Below, one piece after another: positions 608 through 61,513 of a stretch of DNA of 64,000 nucleotides (positions within the stretch are counted from its first letter, which is position 1; every line of letters starts with the position of its first letter). A model generated the notes under the pieces. The model was given only the letters and a program-made list of their open reading frames with translations, did not search any database and was not told where the DNA came from. The DNA is taken from NCBI RefSeq assembly GCF_039555335.1, contig NC_092640.1, forward strand, positions 37,269,569 through 37,333,568. The letters are read 5' to 3'. Source of the DNA: Amphiura filiformis. Lineage: Eukaryota; Echinodermata; Ophiuroidea; Amphilepidida; Amphiuridae. The translations under genes and the position numbers were made by a program.

Positions 608-680
608 ATCATGATGGCCAAGTGGTTAAGGCATAGGTCTCGTAAACCTGAGGTCCTAGGTTCGATTCCCAGGCGGGATC
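608..680 (+). tRNA. tRNA-Thr(CGT)-like sequence, probably degenerate
   Basis: The D-arm and A-box region (TGGCCAAGTGGTTAAGGC) and the anticodon loop CTCGTAA match the eukaryotic threonine tRNA with anticodon CGT. The anticodon stem TAGGT/ACCTG pairs fully with one G-T wobble. The T-loop TTCGATT sits in a stem with one mismatch. The acceptor stem (608-614 with 673-679) has at least two mismatches and no intron is present. It may be a decayed tRNA gene or the tRNA-derived head of a SINE. A functional gene is less likely because of the acceptor arm. Confidence 0.6.
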
Positions 681-5498: not shown

Positions 5499-8400
5499 AT
5501 GCTTGTCCATCGTATTACCCCATTCGCCAGGTTTATCATGGTAATATTGCTGTACTCATTACATGGCAATTTGGGAGCATATATACCAGAACAAGCCTGC
5601 GAAATTCACTATCAGCCAGGATCTGTTACGATAGGGGGAATTGTTCCTACCTATTATTCTGACGAAATTGCTTGTGATGGAGCGTACTGGGTTCCACTGA
5701 TTTCGATGGTGGAAAGTATGACTTATGCCATTCATTTAGTGAACCAATGGCAATATATTCTTCAGAATGTGTCGTTGGGTTATGAGATACGGAACAACTG
5801 TGGTGATGAGGATGTAACGGTATGGAGTGTCTTAACAATGGTCAGCCCTTCAGCGAATGTGGACTATGAAAAGACCTGTTCTAAACAACGTCAAGAATCC
5901 GGAAAGATCATTGGTATTATCGGAACTGGAAGAAGCTCCACAAGTTTACTTGCTGCAAAGGTTACTTCTGTTTACAATGTACCTATGATTTCATACTACG
6001 CAACTAGCGATGAACTTAGCAACACAGACCGATTCCCGTTCTTTCTCCGCACCGTTCCCCCGGACAAATTTCAAGTTGGAGCCGTAATAGATCTTCTGTT
6101 ACACTACAACTGGAAATACATAGCGTTATTTTATTCAATCGACTCATATGGGGTGCACGGAGCTCGGCAAATACAAACAATGGCAGAGAATTTAGACATT
6201 TGCATTGCTATTAATCTACCAGTTTCAAATGCACCCTCAGAAACAGAAATTAAGGACATTGCTGATAAGTTACTTGAAAATGAAAAAGTCACTGTTATTG
6301 TGATATTTTCTCTTTGGCGCCCTGCGTTCGGTGTCCAGCAAGCTATTCTGGAGCACAATATCCGGAGACGTTTTACGTTTGTTGGCAGTGACGGGTGGGG
6401 AGGTGATTTGGTGAATCCTGGAGGCACTAATGAGCTCTTGCATGGTAGTCTTTTCATAAGACAATACGAACAACCAATCAAAGAATTCCGCGATTATTAC
6501 AAAGAATTATCAAACAACCAAGATCTTTCTAGCGAATGGTATCAGAACATGCTTCATTGGATTGGAGAAGAGAATGAATGTTCAGATTGGACTTCGTGTC
6601 CGCTTCCAGAATCTAGTATGGAAATGCAAGTCATAAACGCAGTGTTTGCATTCGCCATCGCCTTAGACAATAGCATTAAAAGCAACTGTGTGGATAATAA
6701 TCTCTGTGATGAGGCGATAGAGGGTAATACGTACTTAGGACACTTATTGAATGTTTCTTTTGATGGTCCAGGAGGTTACTTTACGTTTGATGAAAACGGC
6801 GATACGTCTGGTAAATATCTGATCAAAAGCTGGCAGCCTGTTGATGGTATGTATAATATGGTGGACGTAGGTGTGTGGGATCCTGATGACACTGAGTATC
6901 GTCTACATATCGACGAAGACATAATTGAATGGAATGGAGACATAGGAGACATACCTGAATCATTGTGCTTCGAATTATGTGGTCCAAATGAAATATCAAT
7001 CCCGTTAAAGAAGAAATGCTGCTGGGGTTGTCAGTCTTGCGCAGATCACGCAATTGTCGTCAATGCCAGTAGCTGCGAAGAGTGCTCCCTTTTTGAATGG
7101 CCAAATGGTAACTTCACAGAATGTTTGCCAATATACCCAGATTATGTTAGCATCAGGAACCCAATCATTCTAGCCATCGTCGGTATATCGTCCGTCGGTA
7201 TCTTATTGTGCTTTTTGGTAATTGTCGGCATATGGGTGTACCGACATCACCAACTAATCAAAGCCACCAGTCGCGAGCTTAGCTGTGTTAATCTAATCGG
7301 ACTTACAATGGCATGCGTAGCATCACTTCTTACTGTTCTAAGGCCATCAGCTTTCTCATGTAGTATATCTGATATCTGTATTTCGTTGAGCTTCAGTTTC
7401 ATTTTTGCGCCTATTTTGTTTAAAGTTAACCGTATTTGGCGTATCTTTCAAGCAGGAAGCAAATCAGTGCAACGCCCTCGATTTGTGAGCCCAAAACAGC
7501 AACTCGTTTTAACATCGGCAACCATCCTTGGTCAGGTAAATGCTCTCTTAAATGCAAATCAAAGATCAGACAATCGGATACTATTAGGCCACCCTTTAAT
7601 CTAGTGCTCAGGCAATATTTGGTACCTACCTGGTCTCTTGGCCAAGTTGTTATGAATGAATGAATGAATGAATGAATGAATGAATGAATGAATGAATGAA
7701 TGAATGAATGAATGAATGAATGAATGAATGAATGAATGAATGAATGAATAAATAATAAATAAATAAATAAATAAATAAATAAATAGATAAAGGTGACTAT
7801 CTTCGTGCAGAGTGCTCGATGCATTAAAGCAGAGCTAATAATACGAGTAGAACTTGTGGAACGAAAGTTCCACAAGTTAAATAATGCGATCATCAGACAA
7901 CTGATCAGTTGATGATCGCATTAGCGTGAAACTCAGAGTTACAACTTTCGTTCCACAAGTTCTACTCGTAAATAAATAGATAAATAAATAATTATATGAT
8001 ATGATATGATTATAATAATATGAGACAAATCATAAGAAAAGAAAAGCAAAAAACCAACACTCCTAAAAAACTAAACAAAACAAAAAACCCACGTAACACA
8101 AAACAAAAACAAACAAATAAACAAATAAATAACATACTTGGAACAAACAAAACAAACTTCAAACCGCATAAAAGTAGTTTTGCTTTTTTAAGGAAAAAGG
8201 CGTTACGCTGGGAAGGTTGAGGCCTATATATTTTAAATATAAATTTACAATGTGACGAGACGCGGTCGTATTTAATATTTTAAACCTCATAACGAGACCA
8301 ATAACATTCAATTTTATTAGGATGCAACATTTTTATAAACGTGGTCAGACAACTTTCAAAGTTTCAAAAAAAAGTTGCCAAAACGACATAATTATATATT

Positions 8401-8932
8401 TAATTACTATTTCTTAACAGTTGTTTTATGTATCTATTTACAGGCCATAATTGCTGCTTTATCATCATTGTTTGGCCCTTCAACACCAACCATACTCATC
8501 CCAGCTCAACGTCAACCAATCCTAGGAATCTATTGTCAACTTAGTACCGGCTTCATAACATCATGCATCTACAACCTGCTCCTCGTTATTACTTGCTGTT
8601 ACTTCGCTTTTCGCGCCAGAAAGGTTCCCAGCAATTACAACGAGTCTAAATTCATCGCAATTAGCGTGTATTCAACCCTGGTTGTGTGTTTAGCAGCAGT
8701 ACCCGTGTATTCTACAGCGGTTGATGTTAACCAGATGGTGGCCACTTTATGCGTTGCTCTACTGCTGAATTCTTATCTCACATTGTTGTGTATCTATTTG
8801 CCAAAGTTGTACGCCATACACTTTGCCGGGGATGAGCTGTCCATTGAAACGTGGAGAACCTGGACAGAAAATCGCAATTCCGTTCATGCTATTCAAATAC
8901 AGTCAATCCAAAACCAGAGTAGCTCGACATGA
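5499..8932 (+). CDS. Family C GPCR (mGluR-like), two exons 5499-7535 and 8444-8932
   Basis: Predicted 841-residue plasma-membrane receptor. Residues 1-28 are a hydrophobic signal peptide. About 35-480 form the Venus-flytrap ligand domain, with GSDGW at 296-300. A nine-cysteine domain spans 490-542. The seven-helix domain starts near 555 and carries the mGluR hallmark RFVSP (661-665), FRARKVP and, in the last helix, PKLY. Exon 1 ends GGTCAG|GTAAAT and exon 2 starts after TTTACAG, phase 0, joining TILGQ to AIIAAL inside a helix. AATAAA lies at 8971. The frame stays open 5' of 5499, but this ATG aligns with the paralogue's start and a 1-base indel just upstream breaks frame between them. Aligned to mGluR1, S146, T169, D189, Y217 and D298 match the amino-acid backbone contacts; side-chain contacts (mGluR1 Y74, R78, R323, K409) are P66, M70, D303 and M374. 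The ligand is therefore unknown and probably not glutamate. Confidence 0.9.
7652..7790. repeat. (TGAA)n-(AAAT)n microsatellite
   Basis: About 90 bases of uninterrupted TGAA repeat passing into AAAT repeat, inside the intron of the receptor gene. The minus-strand frame across it is a low-complexity artefact. Confidence 0.95.
7842..7970. mobile_element. Palindromic MITE with perfect 28-bp terminal inverted repeats
   Basis: The first 28 bases (7842-7869, starting TACGAGTAGAACTTG) are the exact reverse complement of the last 28 (7943-7970). A second inner palindrome, with AATGCGATCATC arms, lies near 7882-7922. No coding capacity. It sits in the receptor intron. Confidence 0.85.
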
Positions 8933-15205: not shown

Positions 15206-16330
15206 TTACGCTTGGTTACTGTAATGCGCTGACTGATGTGTAGACAAGGTATTCAACCTAATTTCATCTACACGCTGACTGTATTTACAGCAACCAAGTG
15301 ACTTATAGAAAGCCCTACGATAGATGGAACTGGTACCAAAATACACTATTGGATTGATGCCCGAATTAATAACCACGAAACATCGTGTGATAATAAGCAA
15401 CTGTCCGTATTGAACTTTCGTAAATAGACCAGTACCTGTTATATGTTCGACCATGCCATGAATAGACGCGATACGACTTGGTGCTTGGCAGATGAAGAAT
15501 AACAAGCCATTCAGAATGAGCAGTCGGGCCACCTGATTCCGTACTTGAGTGATGCGGTTGCTGGCTGATGGCTGAGTAACGCTTGTTGAAGAGCGATTCG
15601 TTAAAGTCATTATAATATGACTGTACATGAATATATTGGCAATCATAGCGAGGACAAAGGGCATAACATTCAATATTTCAGAGAAGAGGAACAAGTCTGA
15701 AGGAAGAGGCACGCAGAATCTAATCACACTTGGAAAATCCACAAATTGGTCACTTTTCGGCCAAATGGCGCAATACGAAACCTGTCCACCGTAGTTTGGG
15801 ACAGCACAAGCTGCAAGAAGAATGCCAATAATCCATGACGCTATGATGAGCTTGATGGTGCGACTTTTACCGCTGACAAATCTATGGTGCAGTGGTCTAC
15901 ATATGGCGCAGTATCTTTCAATAGCTACCAGGGTGAGCAGGGCCAGAGAGCTGTTGTACATTACGAATGTAACTCCATACGCAGCTGAGCAACCTATCAA
16001 GCTTTTATAAATCCTGTCATACCGTACAGGTGAAGCAAAATATTGTACAAAATGAGAACCGGCCCCGACAAAAACAAAGAGAAAGTCAGCTATAGACACA
16101 TTCACTAAATAAGCATTGGGTATAGTGTGCATAGATTTAACACGAATAACGGTGAATATGAAAGCAAGATTGGTAATAATGGCTATAGCTATTAGAATGG
16201 GAAGGCCAATCCTGAAGAAGCGATGTTCTGTTGTAGAGTACAGCATTGTTGAAGCGGCCCATACGTGAGAGAGATTCAAAGTAACGAAACCGTCGCATTC
16301 TTGCAAATCTGTGTTCAAAGTGGTATCCAT
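15206..16330 (-). CDS. Rhodopsin-family GPCR, peptide-receptor-like, single exon
   Basis: Predicted 374-residue seven-helix receptor. The frame is open slightly upstream of the first ATG (16330), with no earlier ATG. There is an N-glycosylation site NLS at 19-21. Helix 1 is at about 42-64 with N54; helix 2 has ADF at 81-83; helix 3 runs from C114 to the ERY motif (138-140, a DRY variant) followed by CAICRPLHH. W166 lies in helix 4, C187 is the likely disulphide partner of C114, helix 5 has P224, and helix 7 carries NPIVY (326-330). CC at 347-348 is a likely palmitoylation site. Helix 6 reads FFICQAP, so the usual toggle tryptophan of CWxP is glutamine 282. The overall pattern resembles neuropeptide receptors such as the TRH-receptor type, but the ligand cannot be read from the sequence. 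Fragments of its 3' end lie at 13694-13806 and 14012-14125. Confidence 0.9.
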   Translation of the reverse strand: MDTTLNTDLQECDGFVTLNLSHVWAASTMLYSTTEHRFFRIGLPILIAIAIITNLAFIFTVIRVKSMHTIPNAYLVNVSIADFLFVFVGAGSHFVQYFASPVRYDRIYKSLIGCSAAYGVTFVMYNSSLALLTLVAIERYCAICRPLHHRFVSGKSRTIKLIIASWIIGILLAACAVPNYGGQVSYCAIWPKSDQFVDFPSVIRFCVPLPSDLFLFSEILNVMPFVLAMIANIFMYSHIIMTLTNRSSTSVTQPSASNRITQVRNQVARLLILNGLLFFICQAPSRIASIHGMVEHITGTGLFTKVQYGQLLIITRCFVVINSGINPIVYFGTSSIYRRAFYKSLGCCKYSQRVDEIRLNTLSTHQSAHYSNQA

Positions 16331-19300
16331 ATATTGAACGATGATCAAACTCTAAGGACGAAGCACTCCTAATAAAGTCTAATGATAGTGAACACGATGT
16401 TGTGACAAAGACACTCCGATTCAAAATATACGTTAAGTAATCTAAACTCCCTGGGATGTTATCATGTTTTTACATTGCACCATGTTGTGGATTGACGTAA
16501 TGTAGAGGGGCGCTCAGCAAATAACCAATAACGACCCGATAATCAGTGGCGTTGCTGGGATTTTATCATGGGGCAAGACTGTGTTAAAATATCAAAGAAA
16601 ATTATTTAAAAGAAGAATTAACAAAGGGATCACTTTTCGTGATAAATAAATATCCTTTAAAGTAAATATTTTGCAATAAAGTGACTTTTGTGGGGAAAAG
16701 TCCATATTTTGGAATTCCACGCCCCTTCCACGAAGTATAATGAGTCATTTCTCTTTACCTTGTGGATATTCGACTTATATTTACAAACAAAAGTAATACG
16801 TTTCGATTTTCTTCGCATATTGGACAAAGGGAAAATGGCAAACTTAGTCTTTCAAAGAAATTGCAAGCTCCGCGAGAAAAAAATTGTAAGTTACTTTTGC
16901 ATAATTTTATGTTAAATGGGCGCGAAGCGGTTACACAATTTCAAATTGAATTTAGTTTTGGCCAAGTAAATTAATTAGTACTTTGCCTTATTCGGGCTCG
17001 GGGTTTCTTAAAAAATTAATAGGCGCATTTACCATTGATATGAGCAGTACCATATAATTGTATTTAAACTTAAATTTGACACTGCACGTTTGAAACAGCT
17101 CCAAAAAGATGGTAAATAACCAAATCGGCAAATCCTGCGGCGATATCGATCATTTTCGACCACAGCCTTCTCGACCCCAGTTTTAATTTTAGGTAGTCTT
17201 TGTTTAATATTGCTTGACCAATTTTGTGCAATTTTGTATTTTTTGAATTGTCGTTTTAGCGACTTTCTAATTCGTCGCTCGGATGATATAGTGATCACAA
17301 AAATGGCAATTTTGAGATAATCGCATTTGACCCGTTTGACATTACCTCAATTAAAATGGATAAAATACATTGTTGACATTCACCAATTAATTGTAATTAA
17401 ACTCATAACTTCGTCAGTATGTCAAATATTTTTCGAAAATGATTCGCCATTCAAAATTGACATACGACACATGATACCTCAGTATGTCAAATTCATATCT
17501 GTATCAAAGAGTCACGTAAAGTCCTTTTTCATGATCATGCACTGTGCGTAAGTATTATGAACGAGTGTATACAATCACAGTGTTTAGGGTCCTTTGAGAA
17601 AATGTAGCATGATATTGATAATCATGATAAAAAGTTAAAAGTTTGTGTTTGAATTTGTGTTTTACCAGTTCTTATGAAGGCTATTATGGTCTATAAAATA
17701 GAAAATGAATAATCGGCTTGCTTCTAAATGGGAAAATGTCAGTACTTGTTTAGGGTTGGAAATTGCACTTGTCATACTTGTTTACGCAAACCTCTCAAAA
17801 ACTTTATTGTGTTTTTAAAGACTTGGAAAGGGCATTGATTTCATACTCCCAGAGTATTTTGTAACACAAAAATACGAATTTGTTAAGAGATTCTTTAATC
17901 TAATCTACGTGTAACATATCACTTTGATATATCTAATTTAATTATATTGAAGAAACGGACATGGAAACGCCTATTTTACAATAAAATAAATAAAAATGCA
18001 TTATATTATATGCATGGCACTTCTGAATTGTTGAAGTGCTATCATTGCTTTCAAATATCTCCTATCTAAAGCATAATTTAATTATTTTGATGAGATTGAC
18101 AAAACACAAATTTCATAAATAAAAACATATATCTAGTATTATCTATAGCACTTTGTATTCCACCTGATAACTTCATGAATTCATTTCTTTACATAAAGCA
18201 TGACTACCTTTATCATAAATTTTAATTATACTGAAAAAACTAGACAAACATAAAAACCACAAATTTCATCATTTAAAAGAGTTTGTGTGAACATGGTGCA
18301 TTCATTTCTTATGTAAGCTGTTTTATATCACGTTGTACATGGTAAATAGGGAATTTTAAGCTTAGGTCGCTAAAGTGATTACTGGCGTAATACGTAAAGC
18401 CATATTGTACGATCTTTTAAAATGAAGTTATATTTTCAAACTTGCGATGACATTTTGGCATAATACACATGTTTGAACTTATCTGTGATTTGTTGGGAAA
18501 ACTTTTTTTTCAATATATTACGGATTTTTGTCTCCTAGTGTCTTTTGAATCAGTCAAATTGTTTTTGTTTTTAGGACAACACACAATTATCATACTCAGA
18601 AAATGATTAGGTAGGCTGAAACCGGCTGTAGTCTCATGTAGCATCATGACGCTACAGCCTGTTTTCGCGGGAGAAGCAGTGAACCAAGTCACTTTTAAGA
18701 AAGCCATCGTCGAAGATGTATCTAATGATTTTCTGATTTCGCATAATGTTTTTGGTAATGGAGCATGGATGAATTTTGAAATAGCTGTAATTATGTTTGT
18801 AATCCTTTATCTTGAGTGAAGTTGAAAAGCAAAAGCACAAGCCTACACACCCCGACTGTACATATTTTTAATATATCGCCCAGCACTCGAAGTAGGTTGC
18901 ACTCATCACCTGCGTACATCTGCAATCATAGATTGACTACAATACCGCTCTTTCTGAAGATACAAGATACTAATCTTACAGGTGCGAGTGATCAACATGT
19001 TCAATGCAGAGATACCACGTGAACGTACTAGTGCAGTGCGATATAAACGAATCCAACGAGCCAATTCATGGTCAGGATTTGATCGGCCATGACTGGGTCC
19101 CCGCAACACCAAACTGGTGTTGTGACTGCCCAATATTGGGTGGATTTCATAAATCCGCTTAAAATTCGATGTTAGATTCTTTTGTGTTGTAAACTGTCGT
19201 CATTCTTTTGTCTATGTGTAACACGGGTGATAGAATGCAGTTTAAAATACCCTCCAAGGCCGCATCATTTCACATTTTAGGTGAGATGGAGCCGACGGGG

Positions 19301-23763: not shown

Positions 23764-25334
23764 TACAGGGTGAGTCAAAAAAGTGCAATAGAGCAAAGAA
23801 TCGATATTTATGTAAGAACCATGTTGAACTTTCCAATTATTGAAAGTTTCTATAAATGCCACACTCAATACGCACCCGTTGTGAACAAATGAAGTCAATC
23901 ACATCTACCGTTTAATTTTTATGAGTCCTTTTGCTACGATACCCAATTTCATTATTTGTCCACGAGGTACCATGTATTTTAAATGAGAGCACACAATGCA
24001 CGATAAAGGAACCAGCTCTGAAACTTACTAAGGTTGATTTTTGCGTTATTTCAATTTCATTTTTCTGTTCAAACAAACTTTCTTACATTACTTTTAGTCC
24101 TTCATACCTCACTCGACTTCAACTCCATTTTTTTTTTTTTAAATCCCAATATGTCCAACTTATTGGATATTTTATAATTCACTCCACTTCAATTTGCGCG
24201 CATTTCGACATTTGAATAAATCGGCCTACAAATGTGTATGTTTTTGATAGAGAATAAACATCTTTAAAGTAAAGGTAAAATGAAAATAACAACAAATAAT
24301 GTTTCTTTTCCTAAAACAAGACCAAGGGAAATAACAATTTTGGTGCTCCATTTTATTTCAATGCCAATGAGGTTAAGGGCTGGGGTATGAACGTTTGGAC
24401 AGTATTTATTTTGGGACATTAGAGCACATCAGACATATCGAATTGCATTCTGAATACGAAGAATGTCATTCTGATATCAAATAATTTAGATTTTTTGAAA
24501 TTCGCAATTTGATACACATTTTATGGCAAATCATTAAAATTGATATTTTTGATATTTAACAGTACTTGAAGTAAACTTTATAAATCTGATGATTTATACT
24601 TAAAGTGTATGTAGGTGGGATGAAAAGCCGACGATCAATTGAAAATGTTGACCTTTCGTATTGAAGATATGGATTTTTTTTCCCAAAACACCAAAAAAAA
24701 TTAGGTCTTTTGGGGAAAAAAATCCATATCTTCAATATGAAAGGTCAAAATTTTCAATTGACCGTCGGCTTTTCCTCCCTGCTACATACACTTTAAGAAT
24801 ATATCATTAGATTTATATAATATATATTTATATATATCATTAGATTTATTACTTCGAGGACTGTTATATATCAAAATTTTGAAAAATATCAAATTTTTAT
24901 AATTTGTCATAAAATTTGTATTATATTGTGATTTTAAAAAAATGAAAATTATTTGATATCAGAAAGACATGCTTCGTATTCAAAATGCAATTCGATAGGT
25001 CTGAGGTGCTCTCATGTCCCACAAAAAATACTGTCGAAACGAAATAAACGCTCATTTTGATCCCTTAAGAAAATAGCCGTTGTTCCAAATCTACCTTACA
25101 CAGAGTGGGCTGACATTCAAATTTTAGATGTTTCTTGGACAGATATTAAAATTGGGTATCGTTATAAAATGTGTCATAAGAACAAAACGGTAAATGCTAA
25201 TTCCTTGGTTATTTCACAAAAGGTCACTAATGGATATACCATTTATAAAATGTTTTAAAACCTAAAAGGTTCAAATCGGTTCTTAAATTAAAATGGATTC
25301 TTTTCTCCATTGCACTTTTTTGACTCACCCTGTA
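23764..25334. mobile_element. Mariner-like non-autonomous element, interrupted
   Basis: It starts TACAGGGTGAGTCAAAAAAG and ends with the matching reverse complement, both continuing into GTGCAAT. TA at each tip fits the TA target duplication of Tc1/mariner elements. No transposase remnant is seen. About 45 percent of its length is the separate element at 24373-25068, which inserted into it. Confidence 0.8.
24373..25068. mobile_element. Long-palindrome MITE with TTAAGGG...CCCTTAA ends (copy 1)
   Basis: The two halves are imperfect inverted repeats of each other along almost the whole length: ATTGCATTCTGAATACGAAG near the left end is answered by CTTCGTATTCAAAATGCAAT on the right. AAAGCCGACGATCAATTGA and its partner flank the centre. 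TTAA at both tips would fit a TTAA-targeting (piggyBac-type) transposase, which is inference. A second copy is at 38772-39429. Confidence 0.8.
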
Positions 25335-25852
25335 GTATGCGTCTTTACACTAAATTAGTGCGTTCAACAAACATGGCACATGGAAATCATATAAAACCAG
25401 TGCTGATTGGTTACATTTATGTGGATGGATTAGTTGACATGACGTCATCATGGTCTTTTGTAAAGAATCGACGTAACTTTCCAAAGCAGTCAGAATTACT
25501 CGAGAAACCGTTCGTTATGATGATAAATATGACCTCACCCTAATCCTCTGGACACCCTAATCCTCTGGAATTCAAATAATTGGATTGAACCGATGAAAGT
25601 CAGTCACATGCCTGAACCAAGAATGGTTGAATTCATCCTGACGTCATCTTATAATAGTATAAACCAGAGTGAAAAAGGTCTTTTTGGTAGCTTTTCATTT
25701 ATCTGACGTGCATTTAATTGTGATAAGGTTAGTTTTAAGATCTTAGTGTAATTCATACTAAAAAAAATTACACACAATCATATTGTATGGATTTAAGTAT
25801 TAAACCTAGTAATCCTAATTTTGATTACAAGACAATAATATAAGATAAACGT

Positions 25853-26222
25853 AAAGTGGTACTACACCCCTTGATAAATTTTGTTACTAATTTTGCATTT
25901 ATCTCAAAAAATAAGTACACACTGGTAACAAAAGTTATGTATAGTATAGGAGCAAGGAATCGAATTACTTCACTGACATTTCAGTGATTCAAGACAAGTG
26001 AGTTCATTATATATGTTAAGAAATGAGGTACATTCTAGTGCTACAAATTTTCATTCTTATCATAAATAATGTACCGCTTGTCTTGAGTCATTGAAATTCC
26101 AGTGTAGTAACTGGATTCCTTGCCCCTATAATATACATAACTTTTGTTACCAGTGTGTTATTAATTTTTGAGAAAAATGCAAAAATAGTCACAAATTTAT
26201 CAAAGGATGTAGAACCACCTTA
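25853..26222. mobile_element. MITE, imperfect palindrome
   Basis: AAGTGGTACTACACCCCTTG at the left end pairs imperfectly with the right end (GGATGTAGAACCACCTT). Inner pairs include GTAACAAAAGTTATGTATA with TATACATAACTTTTGTTAC. No coding capacity. Confidence 0.8.
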
Positions 26223-26680
26223 AGCCTGAGAAAATACATCAAATCAAATTAAAATTCATTATTGAGTTGAGTGTTTTTACAAAGAAGTGACCGTTATTGA
26301 GCGGACATATTATGATAATGTAATTGAATCAAACCAAGATATGGACATTGTTATTGATTTGGAACGGACAATGAGGGAACATTTGATATTTCTACAAACA
26401 AATACAATTCAATTTATTATAAACACACTGGCCAAACTTATTTATTGCAGCATTGCTAAAAACGAATTCGGCAAACTAAAGTTAACACAGCCAGGATTTA
26501 GTGTCAGGGGCAAAGCCAAGTTTTCGTCCACAATTTGTTGTTACGTTATTAGTCAACTTGATGGACACTTTGAAGTTCCGAGTTGAAGTCCCCATTTTAT
26601 TGTTTTTATTTTCGATGGGGGAGTGGGCAAAATACCCCCTTGTTTCTGGAATATTATTCTATATTTGTATTATCAATTCC

Positions 26681-28001
26681 AATGGCAATTGTAAATTTGG
26701 CAACTACAGAGGAATCAGCCTACTTAGTCACTCATGCAAAGTTCTCACCCTAATTCTTCAAAGACGCATCATGAAAAGGGCTGAAAAAATCCTTTCAGAA
26801 GCGCAAGCGGGGTTTATACCAGGCCGGTCAACAATTGATCAACTGTTCACCCTGAGACAAATTATGGAAAAACACCTCAAAAAGGACAAAGGACTCTTCT
26901 GCTGCTACATTGACTTCGAAAAGGCCTTTGATTCTGTGTGGCAGGAGGGCCTGTGGAAGGCACGTGGATTCTTCGGATTCCCCAACAAAATTATAAAGCT
27001 GCTTGAAGCACTCTACCGGAAATCTGAAAGTGCTGTAAGAGTTAACGGAGAGTTAACAGAATGGTTTACTACTATAGTTGGAGTGCGACAAGGGTGCGTG
27101 ATTTCACCTCAGCTATTTAATATCCTCCTTGAGCTGGTCATGTTATATGCTCTACACGACACAAACATAGGAGTAAACATTCAGGGACAGCTTATCAATA
27201 ATCTACGCTTCGCGGATGACATTGCACTTGTTGCTGGGAGTAAAAACGACCTACACACTCTTGTTGACCTTGTGCATAAAAACAGCACTTGGGACTGAAA
27301 ATCAACACAGAAAAAACTGAATTACAGGCAATCACCAAAAAGTACACAAAGATAGATATAAAAATCAATGGAGCACCACTAGCCCAGGTTGAGGAGTTCA
27401 CATACTTAGGAGGGAAGGTCTGTCAAACGGGATCCTGCACCGAAGACGTAAAATTACGCATTGGGAAAGCCATAGGGACTGTTCAAAAACTCCACAAGAT
27501 ATGGAGCACCAAAGACATACAGAGAAGCACTAAGATCGAGCTCTACAAAGTACTTACCCTCTCAATACTGCTGTATGGAGCGGAAACATGAACTCTAAAG
27601 AAAGAAGATGAAAACAGACTTTCAACATTTGAAATGATGTGCCTTCGTAAAATAATGGGAGTGTCACGTCTCGACAGGATCAGAAAAACCACCATTCGCA
27701 AAACCCTTGGCATGGAGTTTACCATCCTGGACAGAATATCAATAAAAATAAAAAGACTCAGATACTTCGGCCATATCCAGAGAATGCCACCATCACGTTT
27801 TCCCAAATTAGCGCTTGAGGCACATATCCATGGCAAACGCCCAAGAGGAGACCACCAAAAAGATGGAGTGACTGCCTGAAAGCCGATTGTAGCAAAGTAA
27901 ACATCAGCTCTTTGGGCGAAGCTAGCAGGCCAGCTCAAGACAGAAGGAAGTGGCAGGACATCATGAAGCAGATGGCACCACTCAACCCCAAGTTGGAGTG
28001 A
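26681..28001 (+). mobile_element. Non-LTR retrotransposon reverse transcriptase, 5'-truncated and broken
   Basis: Homology starts abruptly at NGNCKFGNYRGISLLS and runs through the palm motifs AGFIPGRST, CYIDFEKAFD, VRQGCVISP and the catalytic FADD (about 27210-27221). It continues through YLGGKV, SILLYGAET, RKIMGVSRLDRIR and LRYFGHIQRM to a natural TGA at 27999-28001. Three lesions break it: a frameshift near 27290-27298, a TGA replacing an expected tryptophan codon at 27589-27591, and a one-base loss near 27847-27852. The endonuclease domain is missing. This is a dead LINE copy; the C-terminal pattern is of the endonuclease-bearing non-LTR group, exact clade not determined. Confidence 0.88.
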
Positions 28002-31169: not shown

Positions 31170-34075
31170 ATGCTTGTTCGTCATATTACTTCATGCACCA
31201 TGTTTATCATGGTAATATTCATGTATTTCTTAAAATGCAATTTCGCAGCATACATACCTGAACGAGCCTGCGAAATCCATCAACAGCCAGGTTCTGTAAC
31301 AATAGGAGGGATTTTTCCTACATATTATTCAAACAAAATTGCTTGTGATGGAGCTTATTGGGTTCCGATAATATCGATGGTGGAAAGTATGACTTATGCC
31401 ATTCATTTAGTGAACCAGCGGCAAGATATTCTTCAGAATGTGTCGTTGGGATATGAGATACGGAACAACTGTGGTGATGAGGATGTAACGGTATGGAGTG
31501 TCTTGACGCTGCTAAGCCCTTCAGGAAATGTAGACTATGAAAATGTGTGTTCAACACAACGTCAAGAATCAGGAAAGGTCCTTGGTATTATCGGGACAAA
31601 AAGAAGCTCCACAAGTCTACTCGCAGCAAGAATTGCTTCTGTTTACAATGTGCCTATGATTGCATACCAAGCAACAAGTGATGAACTTAGCAACACAGAC
31701 CGATTCCCGTTCTTTCTCCGCACCGTTCCCCCTGATAAATTTCAAGCGTCAGCCATTATAGATCTTCTGTTGCACTACAATTGGAAATACATTGCGTTAT
31801 TTTATTCAATCGACTCATATGGGGTGCACGGAGCTCGGCAAATACAAACAATGGCAGAGAATTTAGATATCTGCATTGCTATTAATCTGCCGGTTTCAAA
31901 TTCACCCTCAGAATCGGAATTTAAGGACATTGCTGATAAATTACGCGAAAATGATAAAGTCACTGTCATTGTGATATTTTCTCTTTGGCGCCCAGCGTAT
32001 GGAGTCAAGCAAGCCATTTTGGAGCATAATATCAATAGACGCTTTACGTTTGTAGGGAGTGACGCATGGGGAGGTGATGTGGTGAATCTTCAAGACACTA
32101 ATAAACTCCTGCATGGTAGCCTTTTCATCAGAATATACGAACACCCAATAACAGAATTCCGTGATTATTACAAAAAACTATCAAACAAACAACATCTTTC
32201 AAGCGAATGGTATCAGAACATGCTTCATTGGATCGGAGAAAAGAATGAATGTTCAGATTGGACGTCGTGTCCGCTTCCAGAATCCAATATGGAAATGCAA
32301 ATCATAAACGCGGTATTTGCTTTTGCAATCGCCTTAGACAATAGCATTAAAAGCAACTGTGGGTATAATAATCTCTGTGATGAGGCGATAGAGGGTAATA
32401 CGTACTTAGGACACTTATTAAATGTTTCTTTCGAAGGTCCAGGAGGTTACTTTACGTTTGATGAAAATGGCGACACATCTGGTAAATAATTTATCAAAAG
32501 CTGGCAGCCTGTTGATGGTATGTATAAGATGGTGGATGTAGGTGTGTGGGATCCTGATGACACTGAGTATCGTCTACATATCGACGAAGACATAATTGAA
32601 TGGAATGGAGTCATAGGAGACATTCCTGAATCATTATGTTTCGAAATATGTGGTCCGAATGAGATATCTATCCCATTAATGAAGAAATGTTGCCTGGGTT
32701 GCCAGCCTTGTGCAGATCACGCAATAGTAATCAATGCCAGTCGCTGTGAAGAGTGTCCACTTTTGGAATGGCCGAATGATAATTACGCAGAATGTTTGTC
32801 GATATACCCAGACTATGTCAACCTTAGAAACCCCGCTATTCTAGCCATCGTTAGCATATCATCTTTCGGTATATTGTTGTGTCTGTTGGTTATTGTTGGC
32901 ATATGGGTCTACCGACATCATCAACTTGTCAAAGCCAGCAGTCGCGAGCTTAGCTTTGTGAATCTAATCGGACTTACAATGGCATGCGTAGCTTCGCTTC
33001 TTACCATCTTACGACCATCACTTTTCTCATGTATTTTCTCTGAGATCTGTATTTCGTTGAGTTTTAGTTTAATTTTTGCACCCATTTTGTTTAAAGTTAA
33101 CCGAATTTGGCGTATCTTCCAAGCAGGAAGCAAATCAGTGCAATGTCCTCGTTTTGTGAGCCCAAGAGAGCAGCTCGTTTTAACATCGGCAACTATCCTT
33201 GGTCAGGTAAGTAGATCTTCGCTCTTTTTTCCCTTTTAAAAATATCAGACAATCGGGCATAGAAGAGTTAGTACATAAAACCACAATCCTCTTATCTTAG
33301 GTAGAATGCAAAAGTTGTCAATGTATATAGAGCAGCTTTTTCAATATGGCTCATTGCACTACCCCTTAATATGATAATAATAAGACAAAATACAAACCAA
33401 ACCAAAGCAAGAAAGCCAACCAATCAAACATCAAACAAACACAAAACAGGCACACAAACGAATAAAAAAAATCTTACACGCGTGGTTATTGTAACCTGTA
33501 CGAACATCTAGACTCTGGAAAATGTATTAGAGAAGTAATAACGTTTTTCTATTAAAGACTTTTCTTATTTACGTATTCATTTCCAGGCGATTATTGCTGG
33601 TTTATCATCATTGTTGAGTCCTTCAACACCAACCATACTCATCCCAGCTAAACGTCAACCCTTTCTAGAAATCTATTGTCAACTTGGTATAGGCTTTAAA
33701 ACATCATGCATCTACAACCTGCTGATCATTATTACCTGCTGTTACTTCGCCTTTCGCGCCAGAAAGGTTCCGAGCAATTACAATGAGTCTAAATTCATCG
33801 CAATTAGCGTGTATTCAACCCTGGTTGTGTGTTTAGCGGCCATACCCGTGTATTCTACAGCCGTTGATGTCAATCAGATGGTGGCAACTTTATGCGTGGC
33901 TCTACTGTTGAATTCGTATCTCACATTGTTGTGTATCTATTTACCAAAGCTGTATGCCATACACTTCGCAGGGGATGAGCTGTCGATTGAAACATGGAGA
34001 ACCGGAACAGAAAATCGCAATTCTGTACACACTATTCAAGTACAGGCAGTCCAAAACCAGGAAACCTCGACATAA
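31170..34075 (+). pseudogene. Family C GPCR paralogue with one in-frame stop (exons 31170-33206, 33587-34075)
   Basis: It aligns codon for codon with the receptor at 5499-8932: 679 codons in exon 1 and 162 plus stop in exon 2, with the intron at the same phase-0 site (GGTCAG|GTAAGT, TTCCAG|GCG). The only lesion is TAA at 32487-32489, codon 440, where the first copy has tyrosine (GGTAAATAT versus GGTAAATAA); the frame continues without any shift. The stop falls at the end of the ligand domain, so a truncated product would lack the cysteine-rich and membrane parts. Signal peptide, GSDAW (296-300), nine cysteines, RFVSP, FRARKVP and PKLY are all kept. The same ligand-contact changes are present (M70, D303, M374). 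It could be a young pseudogene, a segregating null allele or a sequencing error. Confidence 0.85.
33207..33586 (+). other. Intron of the second family C GPCR
   Basis: A 380-base intron with consensus donor GTAAGT and acceptor CATTTCCAG. It has no MITE or tetranucleotide array, unlike the intron of its paralogue. Confidence 0.85.
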
Positions 34076-37440: not shown

Positions 37441-38194
37441 TCATAGTGCAGTTATGTCCACGGCAAATTCACCGTGACCTTTCCAGCCATAAACCCGCTT
37501 ATTGAAGATTAAACCGATATATGCAGTACTAAACCATTATATAGTAATCTATTGTCCAATGCAAATTTATTACCACCTGATAATATTAATCCAATGAGCG
37601 ACCGAATTGTCCGCTACAGACGACTAATCCAATCAATAATGACGCTATTGACATGTACGAGCGGAGCTCCACTGACCGCGTTTTGGGGTATTTTTCACTA
37701 TTTTGCAGCTGTTTGCTGTCATTTACTCATCAAGGCGGACCACCGTTATTATAAGGACTATGCCAATTATTTAAAGATTGACATGTAGAGAATAAGCCAT
37801 ACTTGATTGACAGAAAGTACAAAATTTGTACCTATGACGGTTTTATGACACCAATCCTCTAAATACGACCAAGTCAGGGCTGCCCTGTGAAGCAAAATGG
37901 GCATTGGAATAACACGGTGAGTTTGGATAGATGGTAGGATTTCTTTTTAATAAAAATGCATGTTCCCCCGTTATTAAACCTTGTACCGGGTTGAAAATTC
38001 AGATATTTGGAAAAGAATAAGTAATTGAAACATAGAGCAAGTACTAAAATCATAGCTTTTATACTTTTTGATATATGATGCTAACTAGTTCATCCCCTAT
38101 AGCTAAAACACAGCGCTACCAGTAGGGTTCAATTGCCTATTGTAAGTGCCCCTGTGTTGTGTGCATACATGTAGTTAACAATAACTGCATGATG
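37441..38194 (+). repeat. Unclassified repeat, inverted partner at 60815-61510
   Basis: The whole stretch aligns, inverted, with 60815-61510. Shared blocks include TCACCGTGACCTTTCCAGCC, GGTTTAATC relatives, ATTGTCCGCTAC, AATGACGCTATTGACATGTA, GTACAAATT and CTGTGTTGTGTGCATACATG. A 78-codon frame at 37552 (TTG start) and a 68-codon frame at 61199 keep similar translations, with a pair of compensating indels. The family is not recognised. Confidence 0.75.
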
Positions 38195-38771
38195 TAAAAG
38201 GCACAGCCGAGATATATAAGTAGAGTTGATTACATACTGTTTCAATAGATCAATATTCGGAGCGAACGATGTGATAATGTTTTTGGAGTATTATTTTTCA
38301 CATTTTGTCAGAAATAATAATTGTTAATTGTTTTGTGCCCAAAATGTAATTTTTGGAAACTACGCTGATTTTATCATTACACAAAAAATCACCATATCAA
38401 TTTGTAAGCGATCATTAGCAAAGTCATAGTTTATTGAATTTACAACCGTATGACAAAACAGGCGAAAATAGTAACTTTTTGCACAATATTTGCAAAATTA
38501 AAGAGAATTGGTCATTGCTCACTAAACGTTATTTGTTGACCTAATGGGGAAAATGTTTCTAGGGCAAAGTGTTAGCTTTCGTTTAATATATAAAAAAAAA
38601 TCTGATTGGATGAAGGGAAAACTTGAGGTTTCGACAAAAACCAATCACAGAGGCCTGTTTTCCAGCTGGAAACTTGCACAGCTCTTGTAGTGTAATCAAA
38701 CACTGTGACAATTCACTGCTTGCTTGGAAGTGTGCTCATGTGTATCGAAGTGGAAACTGTGCATAGATTGT

Positions 38772-39429
38772 TTAAGGGATCTGGAATGAGCGTTTTGAGC
38801 GTTTCGACAGTATTTTTTGTGGGACATGAGAGCATATAAGACATATCGAATTGCATTCTGAATACGAAGAATGTCTTTCTGATATCAAATAATTTTCACT
38901 TTTGAAATTACGATATAATACAAATTTTATGACAAATTATAAAATTTGATATTTTTCACATTGTTGATATATAACAGTCCTCGAAGTAAATGTGATAAAC
39001 CTAAGGACATATTCTTAAAGTGTATGTAGCTGGGAGGAAAAGCCGACGATCAATTGAAAATTTTGACCTTTCATATTGAAGATATGGATTTTTTTCCCCA
39101 AAAGACCTAATTTTTGGGTGTTTTGGGAAAAAATTCCATATCTTCAAAACGAAAAGTCAAAATTGATCGTCGGCTTTTCATCCCACCTACATACACTTTA
39201 AGTATAAATCATCAGATTTATAAATTTTACTTCGAGTACTGTTAAATATCAACAATATCAATTTTTAATCATTTGTCATAAAATGTGTATTACATTGCGA
39301 ATTTCAAAAAATCAACATTATTTGATATCAGAAGGCCATTCTTCGTATTCAGAATGCAATTCGATATGGCTGATGTGCTCTAATGTCCCACAATAAATAC
39401 TGTCCAAACGTTCATACCCCATCCCTTAA
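38772..39429. mobile_element. Long-palindrome MITE with TTAAGGG...CCCTTAA ends (copy 2)
   Basis: Same family as 24373-25068 and in the opposite orientation: the end that is on the right there (GAGCG, TTTCGACAGTATTTTTTGTG) is on the left here. TTAA at both tips. The central palindrome (AGCCGACGATCAATTG, GAAGATATGGATTTTT) is kept. Not nested in another recognisable element. Confidence 0.8.
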
Positions 39430-60066: not shown

Positions 60067-60814
60067 CTGCTTTGAAATACACTAGGCCTATTTGTTTTTG
60101 ACCTAACCAATTGTAGGTCTTCTTCCACCTGGATTTTCACCCTGATGTGGCAGTGACGTCTGCGCGTTCAGGCAGCAGTTTCGCCCGCGCATCTATGCGG
60201 CGTATTTAAGCGCGTGGGTGCGTACGCCAGCGCTTTGATCGAACGCTAGCTAGTTGAAGCTGCGCCCGATAGTCATGCACCTAATGTTTGGTACGAAACA
60301 TTTGATCAAACTACTCCTCCAAACGACCAGTTACAATAAAATCAATTTTGATCAAAATCATTTTATCTCAATTTTATAAAAAAAACTAAATTGCACAGGT
60401 TTCTGAATTTCACAGCTCACTCGTGAGATAATAACCATAATAAAAGATTTTGAGTCTATACGAGCTGCACTCACCATTGTCATTCGTTTGTTCCTAAATT
60501 GCAAAATTAATCAGAATTTTGACGGATTCTAGGGTATTCTGGACACTGATAATTCTTTAATTAGTAAAATGGTCAATCCCAAAGCGCCCTCAATCGATTT
60601 ACCCCAAAGCAACACCCCATCTACTATATGTGAGAATATTTTTAAGCTGTCTATATAATACCCGATCTAAACACATTAAACATGAATTATAGAGAGTGAA
60701 GCAGCCCAATTCTGAATTGCTATGTCCTAGCAAAGGATACATATATAATAAATAATGATGTGAAGCTCAGGCAAACTGGCACTATAATAAAGGAAAGAAA
60801 AACCAGAACCGTTC

Positions 60815-61510
60815 CATCATGCAGTTATTGTTAACTACATGTATGCACACAACACAGGGGCACTCACAATAGGCAGTTGAACCATATACTGGTAGCGCTG
60901 TGTTGTAGCTATACGAGATGAACTAGTTAGCGTCATATATGAAAAAGTATAAGAGCTATGATTTTAGTACTTTCTCTATTTTTCAATTACCCGGTACAAG
61001 CTTTAATAACGGGGGAGCATACATTTTTATGAGAAAGAAATATACCATCTATATCCAAACTCCCGTGTTATTCCAATGCACATTTTGCTTCACCGGGCCG
61101 CCCTGGCTTGGTCACATTTGCAAGAGGCGTGTCACGAAACCGTAATAGGTACAAATTTAGTACTTTCTCTCAATCAAGTATGGTTTATTCTCTACGTGTC
61201 AATACATGTCCTTATAATAACGGTGGAGCGCCTTGATGAGTAAATGACAGCAAACCAGTGAAAAATACCCCCAAAACTCAGTCAGTAGAGCTCCGACCGT
61301 ACATGTCAATAGCGTCATTATCAATTGGATTAGTCGACCGTAGCGGACAATTCGATCGCTCATTGGATTAATGTTACCACGTGGTAATAAATTTGCGTTG
61401 GACAATCGATTACTATAATGGTTTAGTACTGCATATCACGGTTTAATCTTAACTAAGCGGGTTTATGGCTGGAAAGGTCACGGTGAATTTGCCGTGGACA
61501 TAAGTGCACT
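60815..61510 (-). repeat. Unclassified repeat, inverted partner of 37441-38194
   Basis: See the partner. Here the left edge is CATCATGCAGTTATTGTTAA and the right edge is GGACATAAGTGCACTATG. It directly abuts the palindrome at 61514. Confidence 0.75.
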
Positions 61511-61513
61511 ATG

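Follow-up and report, generated by a model that had tools for sequence, protein, structure and literature searches.

We identified, in a 64,000-nucleotide stretch of Amphiura filiformis DNA (hereafter the window), a gene (copy 1) that probably encodes a working mGluR-like family C GPCR lying outside mGluR classes I to III, in which the grip on the amino-acid part of the ligand is kept and the distal pocket is remodelled, together with a truncated duplicate of it (copy 2). Receptors of this kind are already known: a fly receptor was proposed as a non-glutamate binder in 2004 (as cited in PMC6307864), and a wider class followed in 2018. Copy 1 would be a divergent addition to the invertebrate receptors that have the mGluR amino-acid grip but no glutamate contacts, for which the only ligand found in the literature searched is that of DmXR, and its residues M70, M374, D303, R145, W273 and R274 offer a clear set for mutation.

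Copy 1 is laid out as follows:
5499..7535, + strand: exon 1, with signal peptide (by eye), Venus flytrap, cysteine-rich linker and TM1 to about TM5 (Pfam, PDB matches, splice donor and frame)
8444..8932, + strand: exon 2, with the remaining 7TM, a short C-tail and the stop included (7tm_3 at 96 bits with 8339-8932 as query; splice acceptor)
5580..6950, + strand: Venus flytrap ligand domain, residues 28-484, limits approximate (ANF_receptor on residues 72-446, 181 bits)
6951..7133, + strand: nine-cysteine linker, residues 485-545, with 9/9 cysteines kept

The product of 841 aa is encoded by these two exons in a frame that is open throughout, and the intron between them (7536-8443) has GT..AG ends and is in phase 0. 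Copy 1 is a family C GPCR of the mGluR/CaSR type, since the flytrap, the nine-cysteine linker and the 7tm_3 domain lie in one chain, with Pfam scores of 181 bits for ANF_receptor and of 86 bits (exon 1) and 96 bits (exon 2) for 7tm_3. The linker domain NCD3G scores 34.4 bits, under the Pfam cut-off of 38.9; nonetheless, all nine linker cysteines are present and align with those of mGlu1, mGlu2, mGlu8, CaSR and T1R3. C235 and C507 are the counterparts of C234 and C518 in mGlu2, the cysteine pair tying the flytrap to the linker (PMC12394075). In a search of solved structures with exon 1, extended by 30 bases of intron read-through, the best matches were mGlu8 (280 bits), mGlu2 (275 bits), and mGlu4 and mGlu7 (267 bits each), followed by mGlu1 (250 bits), whereas CaSR reached at most 197 bits. 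Likewise, when both exons were compared with six references, mGlu1 scored 321 bits, mGlu8 279 and mGlu2 273 (the latter two reference sequences being cut in TM5, here as in the tree below), and CaSR was again the weaker match with 245 bits. Thus, the description of the gene as an mGluR-like receptor, given in the first-pass annotation, is borne out both by the order of its family C domains and by its best solved relatives, although the two copies are only 29-30% identical to mGlu1/2/8, and 28% identical to CaSR. The intron of copy 1 contains a palindromic repeat (7842-7970) adjoining a GAAT/AAAT microsatellite, which has no blastn match in the intron of copy 2.

The residues of the ligand pocket, and those around it, are located in copy 1 as follows:
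5694..5708, + strand: P66 to M70 (mGlu1 Y74 to R78), distal pocket with its basic residues lost, by alignments
5931..5936, + strand: R145 and S146 (mGlu1 S164 and S165), the former basic and the latter a kept contact
5997..6005, + strand: Y167 to T169 (mGlu1 S186 to T188), with T169 kept and Tyr at residue 167, where copy 2 has Gln
6048..6074, + strand: R184, D189 and Q192, signature residues, kept
6147..6152, + strand: Y217 and G218 (mGlu1 Y236 and G237), signature residues, kept
6315..6320, + strand: W273-R274 (mGlu1 G293-M294; mGlu2 S272-E273), lower lip of the cleft, by alignment
6390..6407, + strand: D298 (mGlu1 D318, kept), G299 (Ala in copy 2) and D303 (mGlu1 R323)
6618..6620, + strand: M374 replacing mGlu1 K409, by phmmer and a three-sequence alignment; gapped in a six-sequence alignment

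We anchored the mGlu1 numbering on K409, and the letters at 14 other checked mGlu1 pocket positions agree with expectation. The alignment confirmed the earlier claim that the contacts to the alpha-amino and alpha-carboxyl groups are conserved, as mGlu1 S165, T188, D208, Y236 and D318 correspond to S146, T169, D189, Y217 and D298 in copy 1. The eight-residue signature of amino-acid receptors (S, S/T, R, D, Q, Y, G, D/E; PMC1764893) is kept in full (S146, T169, R184, D189, Q192, Y217, G218 and D298), and 70 of the 143 VFT columns that are invariant in mGlu1/2/8 are kept in copy 1, these eight residues among them (hypergeometric, 0.003). By its aligned residues, copy 1 carries the signature of an amino-acid-sensing family C receptor. 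In the distal pocket, by contrast, the four contacts listed as different in the first-pass annotation do differ: Y74, R78 and R323 of mGlu1 are P66, M70 and D303, and K409 is M374 according to both phmmer (against mGlu2 and mGlu8) and a three-sequence MAFFT alignment. A six-sequence MAFFT alignment opened a gap at the last of these positions; however, since both copies lack any Lys or Arg from C367 to Q377, the loss of K409 holds under any alignment. All four replacements are also found in copy 2. As losses of glutamate contacts, those of R78 and K409 stand, since of the four distal contacts only these two are common to mGlu1, mGlu2 and mGlu8, whereas the positions of Y74 and R323 vary among mGluRs (R57/L300 in mGlu2 and K71/K314 in mGlu8). 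R78 and K409 together form the side-chain criterion of mGluR classes I to III, and both copies have M70 and M374 in their place. The calcium-sensing receptor likewise keeps the amino-acid residues (S147, S170, D190, Y218 and E297, which serve in amino-acid binding in its pocket), and its counterpart of R78 is W70.

A phylogeny against mGluR groups, the check proposed in the first-pass annotation, was built with mGlu1, mGlu2, mGlu8, CaSR, T1R3 and GABA-B2 as references. The mGlu1/2/8 clade leaves the two copies outside with a support of 97.3/94, and in the best tree they are sister to this clade with a weak support of 75.1/72. Two alternatives, which move them toward the root or toward CaSR/T1R3, have AU values of 0.256 each and are not rejected; an earlier tree built without T1R3 supported their position relative to CaSR with 20.2/46. 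Grouping the copies with mGlu2, with mGlu8 or on the mGlu2+8 stem gave AU p values of 0.024, 0.013 and 0.029, respectively, while grouping with mGlu1 was not rejected (p 0.062); under the more conservative SH test, neither the mGlu2+8 stem (0.076) nor mGlu1 (0.090) was rejected. The two copies sit on a long branch of about 1.6 substitutions per site. Such a placement fits a class IV mGluR but would suit an unclassified divergent mGluR as well, where class IV is compared by its published description only. Relatives were sought in viral contigs, with exon 1 of copy 1 and with an alignment of copy 1, mGlu2 and mGlu8, and in genome contigs with the same alignment, and none was confirmed in either.

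Class IV mGluRs, for which a literature search on class or group IV found PMC6307864 alone, are the sister of classes I to III and occur in all bilaterian phyla examined except vertebrates (PMC6307864). According to that description they resemble copy 1 in keeping the backbone contacts, in having non-polar residues for R78 and K409 and in lying outside classes I to III; however, they are described as well conserved overall, whereas the copies here are long-branched. The same source reports intact glutamate contacts for no more than about half of the non-bilaterian orthologues of classes I to IV. DmXR (mangetout) of Drosophila, likened here by description, similarly keeps the alpha-amino and alpha-carboxyl contacts and has changed gamma-carboxyl contacts; it responds to L-canavanine but not to arginine or glutamate (PMC2695807), and so has a tested ligand, whereas copy 1 is known here from its sequence. 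A planarian receptor was given the same description of kept and changed contacts in 2011 (PMC3261222). A different lesson comes from SjGRM7 of Schistosoma japonicum, a divergent mGluR-like receptor that has lost R78 as copy 1 has: six of its seven key contacts are changed, including R78L, and it is still activated by L-glutamate (PMC9750798), even though it is also without most of the backbone contacts that copy 1 keeps.

Since the signature is kept, an amino acid or a close derivative would be expected to close the flytrap of copy 1, its glycine part (the alpha-amino and alpha-carboxyl groups) being gripped between the lobes by S146, T169, D189, Y217 and D298. The side chain would then be read by the remodelled distal pocket, comprising M70, M374, P66 and D303, with R145 and W273/R274 placed at the mouth of the cleft, so that glutamate would not be bound in the usual manner. 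As the linker cysteines and the 7TM domain are kept, we infer from the known relatives that closure would be transmitted through the linker to the 7TM domain in the manner of mGluRs. Ordinary glutamate binding by copy 1 is unlikely, because its side chain would meet the changed distal pocket and because R78L in rat mGlu1 lowers glutamate potency 1,000-fold (quoted in PMC9750798); still, some glutamate activation is conceivable, since SjGRM7 responds to glutamate despite its changed contacts. That copy 1 is an amino-acid receptor without the usual glutamate tuning is a well supported reading of its residues, and it matches the published descriptions of class IV mGluRs and DmXR.

The first-pass annotation went further and proposed an uncharged, hydrophobic or basic ligand. 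Its non-glutamate part fares well, as just described, but the step to this ligand class is weak, given SjGRM7 and two basic residues that the annotation had overlooked, R145 and R274 (the latter with its neighbour W273), which lie near the pocket by alignment and thus closely approach what the annotation itself had named as contrary evidence, namely other basic residues in the distal pocket. R145 aligns with mGlu1 S164, which is among the residues that hydrogen-bond glutamate, directly or via water (PMC5372683), and with mGlu2 Y144, while W273, which R274 adjoins, aligns with mGlu2 S272; R145, W273 and R274 are identical in both copies. As the distance between Y144 and S272 of mGlu2 is a published measure of ligand-domain opening (PMC12394075), R145 and W273 should face each other on the lips of the cleft. 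Since an acidic D103-E104-D105 stretch occupies the loop of mGlu1 H111-S113, the charge around the distal region would be mixed.

Copy 2 lies 25.7 kb downstream of copy 1 on the same strand:
31170..33206, + strand: copy 2 exon 1, with an in-frame TAA at 32487-32489 (codon 440)
33587..34075, + strand: copy 2 exon 2

The two proteins are 86% identical without an indel over 841 codons, and the changes described above are shared by both, as claimed at the outset. However, we rejected this agreement as independent support, because the copies are such close duplicates; copy 2 also has a premature stop. Blastn similarity between them is confined to the exons plus no more than about 50 flanking bases, and no blastn match was found between the two introns. 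The copies differ at residues 144 (Gly/Lys), 167 (Tyr/Gln; mGlu1 S186) and 299 (Gly/Ala; mGlu1 G319), and they have synonymous changes at codons 169 and 189. Purifying selection has acted between the two copies: over 840 codons, dS is 0.38, dN is 0.071 and dN/dS is 0.187, a ratio that compares the copies with each other and therefore cannot tell which of them changed. Where copy 2 has the TAA of codon 440, copy 1 has TAT (Tyr), and the sequence is constrained to either side of the stop; dN/dS is 0.216 before it (0.18 when the fast signal peptide is set aside and the flytrap taken alone) and 0.159 after it, with 95% of 500 bootstraps of the difference falling between -0.165 and 0.038. Since the sequence after the stop is similarly constrained, the stop is probably recent, allelic or an assembly error, and copy 2 would be a tandem duplicate truncated by a stop of recent look; in view of the lack of indels and the two ratios, we rejected the reading of it as an old pseudogene. 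Read only to its stop, copy 2 resembles SmGBP of Schistosoma mansoni, which is mGluR-related and without a 7TM domain (PMC3206071); however, SmGBP is an expressed cDNA, whereas copy 2 retains constrained 7TM sequence past the stop.

The stop and the long branch might also be taken to mean that both copies are decaying pseudogenes whose pocket changes reflect drift. We regard this as very improbable, as the frame of copy 1 is fully open, no indel has accumulated in 841 codons, dN/dS between the copies is 0.187 and the constraint is similar after (0.159) and before (0.216) the stop. The long branch, with its about 1.6 substitutions per site, would also suit a flytrap that has lost its own agonist, the receptor serving as a partner subunit in a heterodimer. 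There are precedents for such partner subunits without an agonist of their own in the GABA-B and T1R receptors. Nevertheless, a non-binding subunit need not keep the signature, whereas all eight signature residues are kept here, even at codons 169 and 189, where the copies differ synonymously, and this explanation seems improbable.

The remaining alternatives accept a binding flytrap and concern what it binds. Copy 1 could still be a receptor of acidic amino acids, even of glutamate, in which R145 and R274 would have taken over the positive charge of R78/K409 and would hold the distal carboxylate from the cleft mouth. The position of R145 at a glutamate contact of mGlu1 (S164), the placing of R145 and W273 at positions opposed across the mGlu2 cleft, the identity of R145 and R274 in both copies, and the glutamate binding of SjGRM7 without the usual contacts (PMC9750798) all speak for it; on the other hand, D303 and the loop of D103-E104-D105 are negatively charged, and R78L in rat mGlu1 brings a 1,000-fold loss of glutamate potency (quoted in PMC9750798), so that we hold it to be unlikely. 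It is a somewhat fainter prospect that the pocket has been rebuilt for a new ligand class, with R145 on the upper lip of the cleft and W273-R274 on the lower one replacing the charges of R78/K409, and that the copies, which differ at 167 and 299, diverged in ligand before copy 2 was truncated. The preferred reading is a working amino-acid receptor with a remodelled distal pocket.

When 2,911 reading frames of at least 15 aa in the window were searched with a profile, the five expected frames were found; three more frames with E-values of 1.5 or worse, and two weak tblastn hits obtained with reference receptors at other places (E 0.37 and 0.54), were taken as chance and not as further receptor copies. 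None of ten further, neighbouring reading frames (105-162 aa) matched a Pfam family at E 0.01. A single-exon frame of 380 aa at 15206-16348 (- strand) encodes a rhodopsin-type GPCR (7tm_1, 106 bits), for which the thyrotropin-releasing hormone receptor scores best among solved structures (61.7 bits), and a reverse transcriptase fragment at 26501-27298 (+ strand; RVT_1, 103.5 bits) is likely part of a LINE-type element. A tRNA-Thr (anticodon CGT) lies at 608-680 (+ strand). Finally, the window holds inverted or palindromic repeats of 0.37-0.76 kb that are 80-87% alike, as in MITE-like elements:
24373-25068 / 38772-39429: inverted/palindromic repeat
37442-38197 / 60812-61513: inverted/palindromic repeat
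25852-26222: inverted/palindromic repeat
38796-39414: inverted/palindromic repeat
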